Origin: an uncultured Butyrivibrio sp.
GTDB lineage: Bacteria; Bacillota; Clostridia; Lachnospirales; Lachnospiraceae
DNA length: 34,748 nucleotides
Assembly (NCBI GenBank): GCA_947168935.1
Contig: CAMVNV010000024.1
Location: 1 to 34,748, forward strand
Direction of reading: 5' to 3'
Shown: positions 1,235 through 26,916 of the stretch, one piece after another
Position numbering within the stretch: position 1 is the first letter of the stretch
Layout: the number at the start of each line of letters is the position of its first letter
Translations under genes and position numbers: made by a program
Notes under the pieces: model-generated
Seen by the model: only the letters and a program-made list of their open reading frames with translations
Database searches by the model: none
Told to the model about the DNA's origin: nothing

Positions 1235-4200
1235 ATGGATTTTAAGATTGATAACAAAAGCGGACTTTCTTTTTATTATTCTTCAAAGACTCTTCGCGGT
1301 GTCAGAAGAGTTATGGATAAAGTAGCTGAAGACGTTAACAAGGTTTTTGGTATCGCTCCTGATTTTTGTGAAACTGAAAACTTTACTGATGTAAATACTA
1401 ATAATTCAAATGGTATATACGTTGGAACGTTGGGAGTATCTTCTGATCTTCCTCTTACAAGCGAAGAGATGGATACTTTATCAGGCAGAAAGGAAGCATA
1501 TGCTTTCCTTCTTAAGGAAGTTCCCGGAAAAGATAAACCGGCACTTGTAATAGTAGGAAGCGATAAGAGAGGTACAATCTACGGTCTCTTCCATCTGTCA
1601 GAGCTTATTGGTGTATCACCCTGGGTCAACTTTGCAGATGTAAGACCTGCAAAAAAGACTGAAGTTGTTATTACAAAAGCAGATGAACTTATCTCAAGAC
1701 AGCCTTCAGTTAAGTACAGAGGTCTTTTCATAAACGACGAGTGGCCGTCTTTTGGTAACTGGACTATGAAACATTACGGCGGATTCACTGCTGAAATGTA
1801 TGACAACGTATTTGAGCTGATCCTCCGTCTTAAAGGTAACTATCTGTGGCCTGCAATGTGGACTTCCAATTTCTCACTTGATGGTCCTGGTCTTAAGAGT
1901 GCAGAACTTGCTGATGAATACGGAATCGTAATGAGTAACTCTCACCACGAGCCATGTTCAAGACACAGTGAGGAGTGGGACCTTGTAAGAGGCGAAGACA
2001 GTAAATATGGTAATGCCTGGAACTTTGACAAGAACAAAGAAGGTCTTACTAATTACTGGAGAGATGGTCTTAAGAGAAATGCTCCATTTGAGAACATCAT
2101 CACTGTTGGTATGAGAGGCGAAAGAGATAGTGAGGTTCTTGGACGTGAGGCAACTCTTAAAGAGAACATTGATTATCTTAAGGAAGTAATACTTACTCAG
2201 AGAGATCTTATCAAAGAAGTATATGGCGAAAATGCGGATGAGATTCCAATGATGCTCGCTATATATAAGGAAGTAGAGAAGTACTACTTTGGTGATGAAA
2301 CTACTGAAGGTCTTAGAAGCTGGGATGGTCTTGACGGCATAACACTTATGCTTTGCGAAGACAACCAGGGCAATATGAGAAGACTTCCTGAAGACGGCGA
2401 AGTTCATAACGGCGGTTTCGGAATGTATTATCACTTTGATTATCATGGCGATCCTGTTTCATACGAATGGGTTAACAGTACATATATACCAAAAGTATGT
2501 GAGCAGATGAGTGAAGCTTATGATAAGGGTGTCAGAGATATCTGGATCGTTAATGTTGGTGATCTTAAGCCTCAGGAATTCCCGCTTTCATATTTCTTCG
2601 AACTTGCTTATGACTATGAGAAGTGGAGCGTTCATTCTGAAAAGCCTTACATCAGATTCCTTGACTACTGGACCAAGCAGCAGTTTGGCGGATACCTTCC
2701 GGAAAAGGAGCTTGCAAGGATCGAGACACTTCTTGATGAATATACATACCTTAGCAGCATAAGAAAGCCTGAATGTCTGTATCCCGGAACACTTCACAAC
2801 TTCAACTATGGTGAGGCGGACCGTATCTATAAGAAGGCTAAAGAGATCAGACAAAGCTGCGATGAACTTGAAATGTATATCCTTGCTAACAGACTTAAAG
2901 TGATAGATTCAGCATTATTTGAGCTTGTTACTTTCCCTGCAAAGGTTATCGCAAATCACTATGAAATGAATATAGCAGCAGAGAAGAACAGAGTTTGTGC
3001 TAAACAGGGAAAAGTTACAGCAAACTTCTATGCAGAAGAAGTTGAGAAGTGCTACAGAATTGAGAAAAATCTCATCAGTACATATCACTCAATTGAGAGC
3101 GGCAAGTGGGACGGAATGATGCTGTCTCAGCACACAGGCTTCAGATACTGGAATGAAGAAGAGAATATGTATCCTTCAAGATCATATATCTGGCCTGCTG
3201 AAAAGCACAGAATGATAGTTTCAGTTCCTCTTACCGGTGCATATTCTATGGGAGGAGACTGGACCAGAAAGCCTCTCTTCTTATATGAATACTTAAAACC
3301 TGAAGTAAGTAAGCAGTCATTCCTTATTGAAAACGGCGGCAACACACCTGTTGAATATAAGATCGAAACTGCTGATGAATGGATAAGCGTTGAGGAAACA
3401 GAAGGTAAGATTCCTGTCTTTGAGCAGATTGACGAAAAGATCAGCGAAAAAGAGATCACTGTCACTATTGATAGAGATAAGCTGTCAAAGCTTATCGAAG
3501 CTAAAGCTTCTAATAAAGAAGGAAGCGATGATCTGAAGCTTATCCGTAAAGGAAATACTGATTATGTATCAGGAAGCCTTTTGGTATCATCCGGCAACAA
3601 GAAAGTAACAGTTGTAGTTCTTGCAGCTTGCTATGCAGATGAAGATGTTAAGCTCAGCCACATGGTTCCTGTTGTTCCTGATGAATGGGTAAGATTCATA
3701 AATCCTCAGGACTTCCCGACAGCATTCGTTGAAGTTAGAGAATCTGCTAATACAGGAGATTCAATAGGTCTTGCGATTGAAGCTGATGAATATGACAAGT
3801 TAAATGATGACAAGGACAGAGATCTTAAAGTAATAAGCCCTCTTGGCAAGTATAGATGCGGCGTTAAGGCTCTTGGCAAGGGCGACGGATCAAGGCCAGA
3901 TGCTTCTTATCTTCTTAGCTTTGTTGAAGAAGGCGATTATGAACTTACCTTTATCATTGCTCCTTCAAATCCTATTACCAAGGACAATACTTTAAGACTT
4001 GGTATTACCTGGGAAGGCGAGAGACAGGAACTTAATCTTATAGGAAAAGAGTTCGTTGGAGGAGATAATTCCAACTACCTTTGGTCAAAAGATATATTCG
4101 CCGGTGAACACAGAGCAAGTGTTACAGTTCCATGTAAGGTTGGAACAGGCAGGCTGGATGTTGATTTTATTGATGAAGGAATTGTTCTTGAAAGAATCCT

Positions 4201-19423: not shown

Positions 19424-19472
19424 TCTTGAATAACACAGTATATATCAACTTTCTGATTTTATGGAGATTGCT

Positions 19473-20213
19473 TTGAACTATACTTTTAGTAATAATGGAA
19501 TAGATACAAGTGTATATTATTCAGAAGACAATATAAAAGATATATTTCTTCCTTTGCTAAAACGTATGAGTGATTTAAGGAAGAGCAAGGATAAGCGGAT
19601 TCTTGTTATGCTTGCAGCACCGCCTGGAGCTGGCAAGAGTACGCTTTGCAGCTTCCTTAAATATCTTTCTGAAAACACAGAAGGCCTTGAAGACATATCA
19701 GTTATCGGAATGGACGGTTTTCACAGGTATCAGGAATATCTTTTGTCACATACTATAGTTCGTGATGGGAAGACAATTCCTATGATCGATGTGAAGGGCG
19801 CTCCTGAGACTTTTGATCTTGAAAGATTTCTTGATAAAGTAAAGAGCGTAGCTTCAGGAGATGTGTGCGGCTGGCCTGAATATAACAGGATGACGCATAA
19901 CCCTTTGGAAGATGCTATAGTAGTTGATAGTGATATTGTGCTTCTTGAAGGTAACTACCTTCTTTTAAAGGATGAGGGCTGGAATAAACTTTCAGATTAT
20001 GCAGACCTTACCGTAAGTGTTACGGCCGATCCTGATATGCTTAGAGGCCGCCTTCTTGAAAGGAAGATAAGAAGTGGCAAGAGCGCTTTGGAAGCTGAGA
20101 ACTTTGTAGATTTTAGTGATATGTATAATGTCAGAACTGTCCTTGAAAGATCTAAGGATGCTGACGTAAGACTGGAAGTTTTGTCTGATGGAAGTTATAG
20201 AGGGATACTATGA
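19473..20213 (+). CDS. YggC/COG1072-like P-loop sugar or nucleoside kinase
   Basis: The protein is about 246 residues long. I prefer the TTG at 19473, which has ATGGAG six bases upstream; the ATG at 19461 extends it by four residues but lacks a ribosome site. Walker A is AAPPGAGKSTLCSFL, about residues 46-60. Other family marks are VIGMDGFHRYQEYL, DVKGAPETFDLERFLDKV, CGWPEYNRMTHNP, IVLLEGNYLLL and FSDMYNVRTVLERS. These fit the nucleoside/nucleotide kinase family related to pantothenate and uridine kinases and to fructose kinases of sugar-transport operons. Its substrate is unknown; a sugar released by the neighbouring enzymes is possible. Its stop overlaps the ATG of the next gene by ATGA. 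A decayed second copy lies at 21796-22021. Confidence 0.85.
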   Translation: MNYTFSNNGIDTSVYYSEDNIKDIFLPLLKRMSDLRKSKDKRILVMLAAPPGAGKSTLCSFLKYLSENTEGLEDISVIGMDGFHRYQEYLLSHTIVRDGKTIPMIDVKGAPETFDLERFLDKVKSVASGDVCGWPEYNRMTHNPLEDAIVVDSDIVLLEGNYLLLKDEGWNKLSDYADLTVSVTADPDMLRGRLLERKIRSGKSALEAENFVDFSDMYNVRTVLERSKDADVRLEVLSDGSYRGIL

Positions 20214-20509
20214 AAAAACTTACAAAAAAGGTTGTTATCGCAACTACAGTAGGAATTGCAAGTATGCTCCTTAATGCTGCCTGTGGTTATGGGCCGCCAG
20301 TTCAGGAGTATGATGATAATAATAGCAGTTATGAGACATCTGATTCAGACGATGCTGCAGATCAGAAGAGCAATGCTGCAGAGAATGCTACAGGTAGTAA
20401 GGGCGATTCTAAGGATAATGCCAATACACTTGAATCAATTGATGTTGAACCCGAGGAATATCCTGTTCCCGAGCCAGAGGATGTATACGGACCTCCTGTA
20501 GAAAATTAA
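20210..20509 (+). CDS. Small lipoprotein with N- and C-terminal YGPPV motifs, likely partner of the radical SAM enzyme
   Basis: This 99-residue protein is translationally coupled to the kinase by an ATGA overlap. It has a lysine-rich signal, a hydrophobic segment and Cys25 (LLNAAC), so it is probably lipidated, although Asn at -3 is atypical. The Cys is followed at once by GYGPPVQEYD. A disordered acidic, Ser/Asn-rich middle then leads to EEYPVPEPEDVYGPPVEN at the C-terminus. The same YGPPV motif thus sits at both ends of the mature chain. From memory, rSAM/lipoprotein systems of gut bacteria pair a SPASM enzyme with a small lipoprotein carrying a Cys-x-YGTP/YGPP motif. Being a substrate of the next gene's product is inference from adjacency and motif. 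Confidence 0.72.
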   Translation: MKKLTKKVVIATTVGIASMLLNAACGYGPPVQEYDDNNSSYETSDSDDAADQKSNAAENATGSKGDSKDNANTLESIDVEPEEYPVPEPEDVYGPPVEN

Positions 20510-20531
20510 ATAATATAAAGAGATCACAGTA

Positions 20532-21617
20532 ATGAACAAATACAAGATGAAAAAATCTCACCTTGATATGCAAAGTGATGTTCGTTCAAAGCTTTTTGAA
20601 AAGCCTGTACTAAAGCAGCTTTTCTTCGAGCTGACTCTTAATTGTAATGAACATTGTCAGCACTGCGGATCAAGGTGCGGAGATGTGCGGGCAGATGAAA
20701 TGTCCCCACTTGAATGGAAACAAATACTGGATCAGGTCAAAGAGGATTTTGAAGGCTCTCTTCCACAGATCAATGTGACAGGAGGAGAGCCTCTTCTGTA
20801 CCCTGGATTTGAAGAAGTTTTGAGCTATGCCCACGAACTTGGCTTTAAATGGGGGATGACTTCTAATGCGATCCTGATAACACCTGAAGTAGCAAAAATG
20901 CTTCAAAGATGCGGGATGAATACTATCTCTGTCAGTATTGACGGGCTCCCTGATACTCATGACAAAATAAGAGGCTTAAATGGGGCTTATGCTAGAGCTA
21001 TGGAAGGTATTCAGAATCTTATAGACCTTCAATGCGTCGACCAGATCATGGTGACAACAGTTGTCAATCATAAGACTATAGGTGAATTAGATGCTCTTTA
21101 TGAGATAATGAGTCAGATTGATATCGACAGTTGGCGTGTAATGGGCATTGAGCCTATTGGAAGGGCTATGGATCATGAAGATCTCCTTCTTACAGGCGAA
21201 GACCATATAGCTCTGCTTGATTTTGTAAGAGACAAAAGAGCTAACAACGACCCTGTAACTTATGGATGTTGTCACTACCTTGGCCTTGATTATGAAAGAG
21301 AAGTAAGAGACTGGTATTTCTTCTGCATGGCAGGAGTTACAGTGGCTTCTATAACTGTAAGCGGAGATGTATACGGTTGCCTTGATATCGACAGGACCCA
21401 GGAAGGCGTCATACAGGGCAATATCCATGACAGAAGATTTTCTGATATCTGGAAAAATGAATTTAAAGCATTCCGCTATGATAGAGGCGCAGATGATAAG
21501 AAATGCGAAAAGTGCGAAAGCCGCAAGTACTGCATGGGCGGATCTTTTCACACATGGGATCTTGAGAAAAAAACTCAGCGTTTGTGCCTGAAGGAATTAG
21601 GCTTATTTGACAGGTAA
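20532..21617 (+). CDS. Radical SAM/SPASM enzyme next to the YGPPV lipoprotein
   Basis: The 361-residue protein has the radical SAM cluster motif C38-x3-C42-x2-C45 within LTLNCNEHCQHCGSRC, a GGEPLLYP segment for SAM binding, and SVSIDGLPDTHDKIRG. The C-terminal SPASM region supplies further Cys at 265, 283, 325, 328, 334 and 352 (VYGCLDIDR, CEKCESRKYCMGG). This suits two auxiliary iron-sulfur clusters. SPASM enzymes commonly modify ribosomal peptides or proteins by C-C, C-S or C-O bond formation or epimerisation. The gene starts 22 bases after the lipoprotein gene with only a weak ribosome site, so it is probably co-transcribed. No peptidase or exporter specific to a peptide product is adjacent, so a modified surface lipoprotein fits better than a secreted peptide. 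Confidence 0.9.
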   Translation: MNKYKMKKSHLDMQSDVRSKLFEKPVLKQLFFELTLNCNEHCQHCGSRCGDVRADEMSPLEWKQILDQVKEDFEGSLPQINVTGGEPLLYPGFEEVLSYAHELGFKWGMTSNAILITPEVAKMLQRCGMNTISVSIDGLPDTHDKIRGLNGAYARAMEGIQNLIDLQCVDQIMVTTVVNHKTIGELDALYEIMSQIDIDSWRVMGIEPIGRAMDHEDLLLTGEDHIALLDFVRDKRANNDPVTYGCCHYLGLDYEREVRDWYFFCMAGVTVASITVSGDVYGCLDIDRTQEGVIQGNIHDRRFSDIWKNEFKAFRYDRGADDKKCEKCESRKYCMGGSFHTWDLEKKTQRLCLKELGLFDR

Positions 21618-21719
21618 GCCTGGAGAAAATGACGCGAATGTTTTTAGGAAAAGAAAAAAGGCGAACCAAAAGCCAGTAACAAAAGGCCGACAAAAGACGG
21701 GAACAAAAGCTAGAAACAA

Positions 21720-21781
21720 ACAAGGAAAAAACAAGGAAAAAACAAGGAAAAAACAAGGAAAAAACAAGGAAAAAACAAGGA
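21720..21781. repeat. 11-bp tandem repeat array
   Basis: Five complete head-to-tail copies of ACAAGGAAAAA (21720-21774) are followed by a partial ACAAGGA (21775-21781). The period of 11 is not a multiple of three, which argues that this purine-rich tract is not translated. It lies exactly between the radical SAM gene and the kinase remnant. A lysine-rich frame running through it is not accepted as a gene. Confidence 0.9.
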
Positions 21782-21795
21782 ACATTAAGATGACG

Positions 21796-22021
21796 CTAAA
21801 TAGTAAGAAACTATGCGGATCTTACTATAAGCGTAGTAGCCGATGAAGTTATGCTTAGAAAGAGGCTTATAGACAGGAAGATTAAGAGCGGCAAGTCAGA
21901 GGTGCAGGCCGCGGAGTTTGTTGAATTTAGCGATATGTATAATGTCAGGACAGTGCTGAATAGATCGAGAGATGCTGATATCAGGCTCATAGTACTTGAA
22001 GATTGTAGCTATATATGGTAA
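21796..22021 (+). pseudogene. Decayed 3' end of a second YggC-like kinase
   Basis: The frame read from 21809 gives NYADLTISVVADEVMLRKRL and continues through KIKSGKS and EFSDMYNVRTVLNRS to TAA at 22019-22021. By my alignment about 47 of 67 residues match the C-terminus of the intact kinase at 19473-20213. Similarity continues at DNA level back to about 21796 with a frame change, and nothing of the P-loop half remains. It is followed by an intrinsic terminator. This is therefore the remnant of a paralogue that once closed the kinase-lipoprotein-radical SAM segment. Confidence 0.85.
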
Positions 22022-25266: not shown

Positions 25267-26916
25267 ATGTCCAAAGACCAAATCCTATTAGTAGCCTTGA
25301 ATGCAAAATACATACATTCAAATCCAGCGGTATACTCCCTTGCGGCCTATGCAAATGAAGTAAGCGGAAACGTATCGATCGCTGAATTTACAATAAATGA
25401 CCGTTATGAAGATGTCCTTAGGGGCATTCTTATGAGAAAGCCTGAAGTTATCGGCTTCTCCGTATATATCTGGAATGCGGAATTTATGAAGCAGCTTATC
25501 GAAGATATTCATAACATTGCGCCGCAGATTCGCCTCCTTGCAGGCGGTCCGGAAGCAACCAACGATCCGGAAACATATCTTAACTGGTGCGAACTCGTAA
25601 TGCTGGGTGAGGGGGAAAAGAACTTCCGAAAGATTGCTACCTGTATTCAGAAAGGGGAAGACTTGCCTTTTCGTGAAATGGAGGGAATTGCATACAAAGA
25701 GGAAGGAATTGAATACAAAGAGGATGGGATTGAATACAAAGAGAAGGGAATTGCATACAAAGATGCTGAAGTCATCATAAAAGAGCCGGGGCCAAAGTCG
25801 CTCCTTGATATGGATCAGATTCCTTTTTTGTATAACAGATTAGAGCCGTTTGAAAACCGCATTATCTATTACGAATCCAGCAGGGGATGTCCTTTCCGCT
25901 GCAGCTACTGTCTTTCTTCTTTGGAGAAAAAAGTCAGATACCGCAGCATGGATATCGTAAAGAAAGAGCTTAAATACTTCCTGGATCAGAAGGTAAAGCA
26001 GGTTAAGTTTATTGATCGTACGTTTAACAGTTCTTCAAAAAGGTCTATAGAGATATGGACCTTTATTAAAGAAAACGATAACGGCGTGACCAATTTTCAT
26101 TTTGAGATTGGAGCAGACCTTCTTACTGATAAAGAACTTGAGCTTCTTTCAACACTTCGCCCTGGGCTTGTGCAGCTTGAGATAGGTATTCAGACAACTC
26201 ATCTGCCGGCAATGGAGGCAATACACAGGACAGCAGACAATGCTAAGATATTCTCTAATGTCCAAAAGCTCCGCAGTGCCTACAATATAAATCTTCATAC
26301 AGACTTAATTGCGGGGCTTCCTTATGAAGATTATGAGCGTTTCAAGAAGTCTTTTAATGATATATATCCATTGTATGCAGACCAGCTGCAGCTTGGATTT
26401 TTAAAGGTTTTAAAGGGAACTGATATGTATGATCACAGACATGATTATGAGCTTATCTACAGTTCCAGACAGCCTTATGAGATCTTTGCCACCAAGTGGA
26501 TCACTTATGAAGAGATAGCCAGACTCCATAGGGTCTGCGATGCGGTTGAGCTTTTTTATAACTCTCAGATGTTTACGCGCAGCTTAAAGTATCTGGAGAA
26601 GTTTTTTGACACGCCGTTTAGTATGTTTGAAGAGATGGCAGAGTATTTGAATGAGCATCAGCTTGAAGGCGTCGGAATATCAGTTAAGAAAAAGTATGAT
26701 ATTCTTGAAGCATTTGGAAAAGAGCAAGGGGCTGATGATACTTTCAGCTTGTGGGTCCTTTTTGATAAAATGCTTCATACGCATCAGAGCAGGCGCATGA
26801 GCGCACGAGAGACATTCGCATGGCCTGATGGGGAGAAAACATATGAGTTTGATTATACAAATATTCACCCTGTTACCATGGAGGCGGCTTTTCGAGTGGC
26901 CTGTTCAGATGAATAA
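25267..26916 (+). CDS. B12-binding-domain radical SAM protein with DUF4080-like C-terminus
   Basis: The 549-residue protein starts with a Rossmann-like cobalamin-binding-type domain (about 1-135: ILLVALNAKYIHSNPAVYSL, EVIGFSVYIWN, LLAGGPEA, VMLGEGEKNF). The radical SAM core has C208-x3-C212-x2-C215 in SSRGCPFRCSYCLSS, followed by FIDRTFN, EIGADLLTD, QLEIGIQTT and HTDLIAGLPYED. The last 170 residues match the DUF4080 region found in this clostridial class. The classic DxHxxG cobalamin motif is not evident, as in many such proteins. The substrate is unknown; relatives act in methylation and related radical chemistry. A four-copy 7-residue repeat (about 139-166) links the first two domains. CGGAG lies nine bases before the ATG. 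Confidence 0.88.
   Translation: MSKDQILLVALNAKYIHSNPAVYSLAAYANEVSGNVSIAEFTINDRYEDVLRGILMRKPEVIGFSVYIWNAEFMKQLIEDIHNIAPQIRLLAGGPEATNDPETYLNWCELVMLGEGEKNFRKIATCIQKGEDLPFREMEGIAYKEEGIEYKEDGIEYKEKGIAYKDAEVIIKEPGPKSLLDMDQIPFLYNRLEPFENRIIYYESSRGCPFRCSYCLSSLEKKVRYRSMDIVKKELKYFLDQKVKQVKFIDRTFNSSSKRSIEIWTFIKENDNGVTNFHFEIGADLLTDKELELLSTLRPGLVQLEIGIQTTHLPAMEAIHRTADNAKIFSNVQKLRSAYNINLHTDLIAGLPYEDYERFKKSFNDIYPLYADQLQLGFLKVLKGTDMYDHRHDYELIYSSRQPYEIFATKWITYEEIARLHRVCDAVELFYNSQMFTRSLKYLEKFFDTPFSMFEEMAEYLNEHQLEGVGISVKKKYDILEAFGKEQGADDTFSLWVLFDKMLHTHQSRRMSARETFAWPDGEKTYEFDYTNIHPVTMEAAFRVACSDE
25681..25764 (+). repeat. Four in-frame 21-bp repeats within the B12/radical SAM gene
   Basis: Four adjacent 21-bp copies encode EGIAYKE, EGIEYKE, DGIEYKE and KGIAYKD. 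They lie in the loop between the cobalamin-type domain and the radical SAM core. The frame is preserved, so copy number can vary without loss of the protein. Confidence 0.92.

Follow-up and report, generated by a model that had tools for sequence, protein, structure and literature searches.

The window, i.e. the whole stretch of 34,748 nucleotides analysed here (an uncultured Butyrivibrio sp., contig CAMVNV010000024.1), carries a small lipoprotein gene followed, after a gap of 22 bp and on the same strand (+), by a gene for a radical SAM/SPASM enzyme. The features of the locus are:

19461..20213, + strand: kinase-like gene, given as context and not a conserved neighbour; its stop overlaps the lipoprotein start (ATGA)
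20210..20509, + strand: small acidic lipoprotein of 99 aa, predicted substrate (ORF list; resembles the proteins upstream of relatives' enzymes)
20210..20281, + strand: signal peptide, residues 1-24, with the lipobox LNAA-C25 (read from the sequence)
20285..20299, + strand: site 1, G26-Y27-G28-P29-P30, adjoining the lipid Cys (sequence; codon-pattern place 20288)
20483..20497, + strand: site 2, V92-Y93-G94-P95-P96, three residues short of the C-terminus (sequence; codon-pattern place 20486)
20532..21617, + strand: radical SAM/SPASM enzyme of 361 aa, predicted splicease-like Tyr-Gly maturase (Pfam, NCBIfam, trees, AlphaFold2, Foldseek)
20643..20672, + strand: CNEHCQHCGS, the cluster motif and a Gly-Ser pair common to the nif11_3/GDL clade (column comparison)
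21324..21587, + strand: SPASM region C265-C352 with the auxiliary-cluster Cys (Cys in 40/40; PF13186)

A small acidic lipoprotein with two YGPP tags

A sequence-only reading of this DNA had described a 99-residue lipoprotein with CGYGPPV at the lipid Cys, VYGPPVEN at the C-terminus and an acidic linker. All of this is present in the open reading frame at 20210-20509: the N-terminal part reads MKKLTKK...LNAAC-GYGPPV, the C-terminal part reads EDVYGPPVEN, and residues 25-99 contain 20 D/E versus 3 K/R (disorder of the linker was assessed by eye only). The Pfam profile search gave no match, and hence no Nif11 or NHLP leader on the lipoprotein, and the NCBIfam profile search gave no match to TIGR04134 (cut-off 39.8 bits). 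An identity with PplA was rejected: the match was weak (E 0.0036, 16.5 bits versus a cut-off of 325) and spanned only the signal peptide and the linker.

A chance motif was ruled out by residue shuffles and by the control genes described below. Two YGPP motifs appeared in 0 of 200,000 shuffles of the 99 residues, and at least one in 373 of 200,000. The codon pattern TAYGGNCCNCC occurs at 11 places in the genome of origin (81% complete), where the YGPP ORFs of at least 30 aa are three: the lipoprotein (both sites), an ATPase-like loop (LYGPPGTGKTT) and a 31-aa ORF.

A conserved operon with the kinase-like gene was also rejected, the kinase being matched in 0 of 31 relatives' loci. Neighbours differ among most of the 12 loci listed, with some in common between L008 and L010 and between L009 and L011. 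The lipoprotein-enzyme pair looks self-contained, because the other window genes were matched only weakly in the 31 relatives' loci. A 56-aa ORF at 21851-22021 (+) matches the C-terminal end of the kinase-like protein with 70% identity across 54 residues. The pair sits between this remnant and the full kinase-like gene, which would fit an insertion into a kinase tandem. Shortly 3' of the enzyme gene, at 21713-21782, lie about six 11-bp repeats (GAAAAAACAAG).

A radical SAM/SPASM enzyme encoded downstream

The second gene had been read as a SPASM enzyme with nine or more placed Cys. The protein has 14 Cys in total, and both PF04055 (Radical_SAM) and PF13186 (SPASM) were matched above cut-off; with its CxxxCxxC motif and auxiliary-cluster Cys it is a radical SAM/SPASM maturase by the usual marks. 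When it was aligned with 39 hand-picked relatives (n = 40), the positions C38/C42/C45 (CxxxCxxC), C265, C283, C325, C328, C334 and C352 were Cys in 40/40 sequences, C246 in 39/40 and C49 in 38/40. The Pfam radical SAM match begins at residue 34, which leaves no room for an RRE-sized N-terminal domain. The AlphaFold2 model had a mean pLDDT of 81.5, and the best Foldseek matches with this model were SkfB and SuiB. Further downstream, at 25267-26916 (+), the window encodes a second protein that by eye resembles radical SAM enzymes and contains an internal repeat (EEGIEYKEDGIEYKEKGIAYK).

Tagged proteins accompany the enzyme in other genomes

A contig scan yielded 12 relatives of the enzyme, all from Lachnospiraceae, and in 12/12 a lipoprotein with a YG motif is encoded upstream. 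The enzyme profile was matched in 7 of 41 close genomes, 19 of 397 Lachnospiraceae, 16 of 391 Clostridia and 2 of 398 genomes phylum-wide, four counts that each include the genome of origin and come from overlapping draws. The enzyme is present in 62/115 genomes of one other clostridial family, so that the clostridial setting, which had appeared unusual, is not. Viral contigs gave two weak matches only, which were not used.

From 137 matches, 103 distinct enzymes were retained by identity of the last 150 residues (loci L002-L007, L027-L031, L083 and L084 were left out of the count; L088, which lies outside the clade, and three broken enzymes are included). Beside 97 of the 103, mostly directly upstream, a same-strand neighbour within 450 bp carries YG followed by P at +2 or +3. 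The co-occurrence of YGPP with the enzyme, a check put forward in the sequence-only reading, was borne out: a YGPP neighbour was found at 85/103 enzymes versus 0/236 control genes, the controls being the other long ORFs of the same loci and of the window with the tagged partners masked. Without masking, the control is invalid, since 45/242 genes had a YGPP neighbour because they adjoin the partner itself. With the loose motif 10/236 control genes also have a neighbour, and a few of the 97 partners may therefore be chance. The partners of L067, L087 and L106 came to light with profile-based gene starts, and that of L061 was set by hand. The partner picked automatically for L080 seems to be an unrelated protein in which YGVP occurs by chance; at a distance of 404 bp there is a membrane protein with YGSP.

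In the 115 genomes of the other clostridial family, the lipoprotein profile A2 was matched in 61 of the 62 that bear the enzyme and in 2 of the 53 that do not, the latter two weakly (E 2.2e-4 and 9.3e-4). The association has a Fisher p of 5e-29, a value not corrected for kinship between genomes. A second YGPP-type lipoprotein match (G1248:C18:26467-26769, E 6.7e-30) lies on a contig other than that of the enzyme, and in L050 two similar small lipoproteins (YYGCPNS..KKLNL; 1333-1536 and 3104-3295) flank one enzyme.

The sole enzyme-bearing genome with no A2 match is that of L145, one of the six enzymes without a linked tagged partner. The L145 enzyme has lost its SPASM part, and no lipoprotein was matched in that genome. 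The L064 reading frame is broken (or misassembled) and the adjoining lipoprotein reads LYAPPP; L065 has lost CxxxCxxC and its neighbour reads RSGPPEMAG. These three loci suggest that enzyme and tag decay together, although the number of cases is small and the same picture would arise if the whole locus were decaying. In L148 a small membrane protein adjoining the enzyme reads PAYGID. L088 is from Aureibacter and is placed in the sister clade described below. The L057 enzyme is intact with no linked partner; on other contigs, its genome encodes a DUF805-like membrane protein that bears VYGPPE three times and a zinc-ribbon-like protein that bears CVYGPPPIE, and the remaining YGPP ORFs at the 12 pattern places of this genome are two ATPase-like loops and two 44-aa ORFs.

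Tyr-Gly appears to be the core of the tag

The 97 partners contain 280 sites, 1-7 per partner, so a second motif, which had also seemed unusual, is common in this family. YGPP, the core of the YGPPV whose conservation among homologues had been made a condition at the outset, accounts for 242 of the sites; YGPA (16), YGVP (5), YGAP (5) and others (12) make up the rest. The residue before Tyr is Val in 243/280 and otherwise G, L, E, M, D, A, I, Y, C or rarer (at least ten residues). Tyr-Gly looks like the fixed core of the tag, with variable prolines and a variable preceding residue, because the prolines depart from YGPP in 38/280 sites and yet neither [^Y]GPP nor Y[^G]PP occurs in the 97 partners; the sites were located via YG, and its invariance is partly by construction.

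Most partners are acidic lipoproteins, and a rough lipobox expression matched 90/97, missing L052 and passing zinc ribbons. Other types were also observed. Lipoproteins of the TIGR04134 type accompany L082 and L087 (by score) and L085 and L086 (by record annotation); the L082 partner scores 52.3 bits against a cut-off of 39.8 and carries CGMYGPPP, and weak, sub-threshold CarboxypepD_reg matches follow the tag in L082, L086 and L087. There is a DUF805 membrane protein with a tagged tail (L042/L060). In zinc-ribbon proteins of L062 and L069 (Pfam) and of L061 and L150 (by eye), two CxxC pairs enclose the tag, and short lipoproteins with YYGCPNS were found in L066. The common element is the tag, not the lipoprotein.

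At L062 (250-6081) the enzyme and its zinc-ribbon partner, with YGPK, have small WXG100-like genes (by eye) on one side and, on the other, a trypsin-like protease that has an FHA domain. At L086 of Treponema saccharophilum (3113-3502) the lipid Cys directly precedes the Tyr (SCYGMP), which would make the lipidated Cys itself the residue at which splicing is predicted.

The enzyme clade is sister to nif11-class maturase 3 and GDL enzymes

TIGR04133 (rSAM_w_lipo), the family named in the sequence-only reading, is the nearest NCBI family of the enzyme, and members from Bacteroidota and Treponema have YGTP, YGSP or YGMP near the lipid Cys. The score of 258.5 bits is below the cut-off of 425, as is that of L082 (385.8), a bridging member from Clostridia; Phocaeicola L087 scores 617.5. 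The enzyme and the TIGR04133 proteins form one clade (support 100/98), referred to here as the YG clade. Against TIGR04103 (nif11-class maturase 3, of which we take PlpX to be a member) the enzyme scores 127.3 bits, below the cut-off of 725, and AhbD scores 139. Because the cut-offs of TIGR04133, TIGR04134 and TIGR04103 were not reached, the enzyme is named splicease-like and not a PlpX.

Outside TIGR04133, the best four E-values (53 plasmid records) were those of enzymes from Agathobacter, Nostoc (nif11-class maturase 3), Aureibacter and Azospirillum (GDL maturase), which together with a Tropicibacter enzyme form one clade (100/99). Phages gave no match to the Nostoc enzyme. In a careful tree, from which six long or distant rows and seven near-copies had been left out, the YG clade is sister to this nif11-class maturase 3/GDL clade (branch 95/90), with the root at the midpoint, limited outgroups and some long branches. 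Heme-type enzymes, NirJ, TIGR04053, TIGR04347, MftC, PqqE, ACGX and other enzymes fall outside both. AU tests on groups named after a first tree rejected four alternatives (p 0.011 to 0.021), including YG+mftC (p 0.019) and YG+heme-type (p 0.012).

Several residues follow the same division. Gly46 and Ser47 are present in 29/29 YG rows and 5/5 sister rows, versus 0 and 2 of 14 others. Trp201 is found in 28/29, 5/5 and 3/14, respectively, Glu255 in 29/29, 4/5 and 1/14, and Arg259 in 27/29, 4/5 and 2/14. A point against a splicease-like reading is GGEA in 4/5 sister enzymes, where the YG clade mostly has GGEP.

Small proteins beside 4 of the 5 sister-clade enzymes also carry a tag. The most striking is the Nostoc Nif11 precursor, which ends ...SIALYGLPPELF (final residues ALYGLPPELF). 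One of two DUF1843 proteins in Azospirillum has RPYGPAM, the other lacking YG, and one of three in Aureibacter has QPYGAGI, two of the three reading YAA. No tagged small protein was found next to the Tropicibacter enzyme (L163). The DUF1843-type small proteins beside GDL-type maturases, at L154 (2308-2763) and L088 (2653-3366), are possible splice substrates. On an Agathobacter rectalis plasmid (L153, 3752-3958) a small unannotated ORF ending VMYGTGVRM precedes a nif11_3-like enzyme and an MFS transporter.

Predicted tyramine excision at the tags

The proposal that the YGPP motifs are modification sites stands in part: they are conserved and co-occur with the enzyme, and modification is supported by sequence comparison. 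They are better read as X-Tyr-Gly-(Pro), and they are not confined to lipoproteins. YGPP is very likely what the enzyme acts on. The resemblance of X-Tyr-Gly-(Pro) to the site used by the PlpX splicease allows a prediction of the chemistry. Passages of PMC10533398, PMC11002830 and PMC10373908 describe excision of tyramine (-135.0757 Da) by PlpXY at XYG, with MYG and LYG as natural sites and GYG accepted, and name IPR026482 for PlpX; in part of PMC10373908 several events per precursor and protease inhibition by the spliced products are reported.

From the sister relation, the shared residues, the tags of the sister clade and the published PlpXY chemistry, we infer splicing at G-Y27-G and V-Y93-G. 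It seems to us slightly better than evenly probable that the enzyme is a splicease-like radical SAM/SPASM maturase, active in the absence of a clustered helper, which cuts tyramine out of the tags and leaves ketoamides; the reaction, its timing and its function are all predictions. The enzyme would remove 135.08 Da per site, leaving a ketoamide at each tag, and the lipoprotein would then be exported and lipidated at Cys25. The displayed protein would bear one ketoamide beside the membrane and one near its free end. More speculatively, the spliced tags, tethered to the membrane, might act as decoys for proteases or inhibit them, P1 being Gly or Val.

The main rival is an oxidative cross-link of Tyr to a neighbour (a three-residue cyclophane Tyr-Gly-X, or another C-C or C-O bond), which would stiffen the tag at a cost of 2.016 Da per site. 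Many SPASM maturases form cross-links of this kind, and over the 280 sites the +2 residue is P, V, A, S, C, M or T and never Gly, so that a beta-carbon is always there. However, this residue is Pro in 265/280 sites, to our knowledge an unusual cross-link partner, and the nearest relatives, in a tree built without any characterised cyclophane enzyme, are nif11_3/GDL enzymes. We regard a cross-link as unlikely, if well worth considering.

Less probable still is another Tyr-directed reaction, either mycofactocin-like Val-Tyr chemistry or oxidation of Tyr to a redox group, which would make the lipoprotein a surface redox carrier. The predominance of Val before Tyr (243/280 sites) fits such a reaction, a MftA ends in CGVY, and L009 and L011 have, some 1 kb downstream and on the opposite strand, a flavodoxin-like gene (by eye). 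Part of PMC8326336 describes MftC as decarboxylating Tyr oxidatively and linking it to the adjacent Val. Yet the tag Tyr is followed by further residues and is not C-terminal, the preceding residue can be G, A, D, E or C, and YG+mftC was rejected in the AU test cited above (p 0.019).

It is quite improbable that YGPP is only a docking handle, with the enzyme modifying something else or positioned by the lipoprotein: the number of tags (up to seven per protein), their presence at both ends and their occurrence on unrelated scaffolds are more readily explained by a target site. Given the diversity of radical SAM/SPASM enzymes, the tag might undergo another of their reactions (epimerisation, or oxidation of proline or Tyr), but a fixed Tyr-Gly with variable prolines speaks against Pro as the target and this is the least probable reading.

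Tyramine excision, if it occurs here, may need more than the tag, as constructs with tagged FtsZ were spliced by PlpXY in just 2 of 16 cases, according to passages of PMC10533398, PMC11002830 and PMC10373908. Also against this reading are the low TIGR04103 score, which AhbD exceeds, the lack of a Nif11 leader and of a PlpY match, and the incomplete spread of the tag in the sister clade. In a wider form, which we advance tentatively and with somewhat less than even confidence, the system would represent general protein splicing outside natural-product biosynthesis. A single enzyme lacking a clustered helper would excise tyramine at YG-Pro tags scattered over membrane and cytosolic proteins of unrelated kinds, whether or not these are encoded beside its gene, and so arm anaerobic bacteria with tethered arrays of 1-7 ketoamide warheads, and the TIGR04133/TIGR04134 pairs of Bacteroidota and spirochaetes would do likewise. 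If so, ketoamide backbone splicing would extend beyond RiPP precursors to anchored cell-surface and zinc-ribbon proteins, and the enzyme's handling of many repeat tags could make it useful for labelling proteins. A loss of 135.08 Da per tag is a specific mass prediction for this uncharacterised family of enzymes from anaerobes. Literature searches on TIGR04133, YGPP with radical SAM and rSAM-modified lipoprotein, a set that did not extend to the primary splicing papers, found nothing, and no activity was reported there for the YG enzyme clade. A term check of the main text of a Bacteroidales RiPP paper (PMC10352776) found neither 'lipoprotein' nor 'TIGR041'.

Relation to known systems

MftC resembles the window enzyme as a SPASM enzyme that, according to part of PMC8326336, acts on adjacent Val and Tyr. 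It differs in that its precursor ends at the Tyr and mftB adjoins, and its grouping with the YG clade was rejected (p 0.019).

The TIGR04133/TIGR04134 systems of Parabacteroides (L085), Treponema (L086) and Phocaeicola (L087) have enzymes of the same clade as that of the window, and lipoproteins with YGSP, YGMP or YGTP near the lipid Cys. In contrast, the window enzyme and lipoprotein fall below both family cut-offs and, unlike the TIGR04134-type proteins of L082, L086 and L087, the window lipoprotein has no domain match and has a second tag.

PlpX, if a nif11-class maturase 3 as taken above, belongs with the GDL maturases (TIGR03913) to the sister clade of the window enzyme. A low-power search for a PlpY-like protein in the genome of origin (81% complete), with the 71-aa protein beside the Nostoc enzyme as query and assumed to be PlpY, gave no match at E 1. 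The window lipoprotein differs from the PlpX/PlpY case in having no Nif11 leader, and YG-clade substrates are lipoproteins, DUF805 membrane proteins or zinc ribbons. X-Tyr-Gly, the mark of a PlpX-type substrate, is nevertheless present in the window lipoprotein as GYG and VYG, and the Nostoc core ALYGLPPE closely resembles the window tag.
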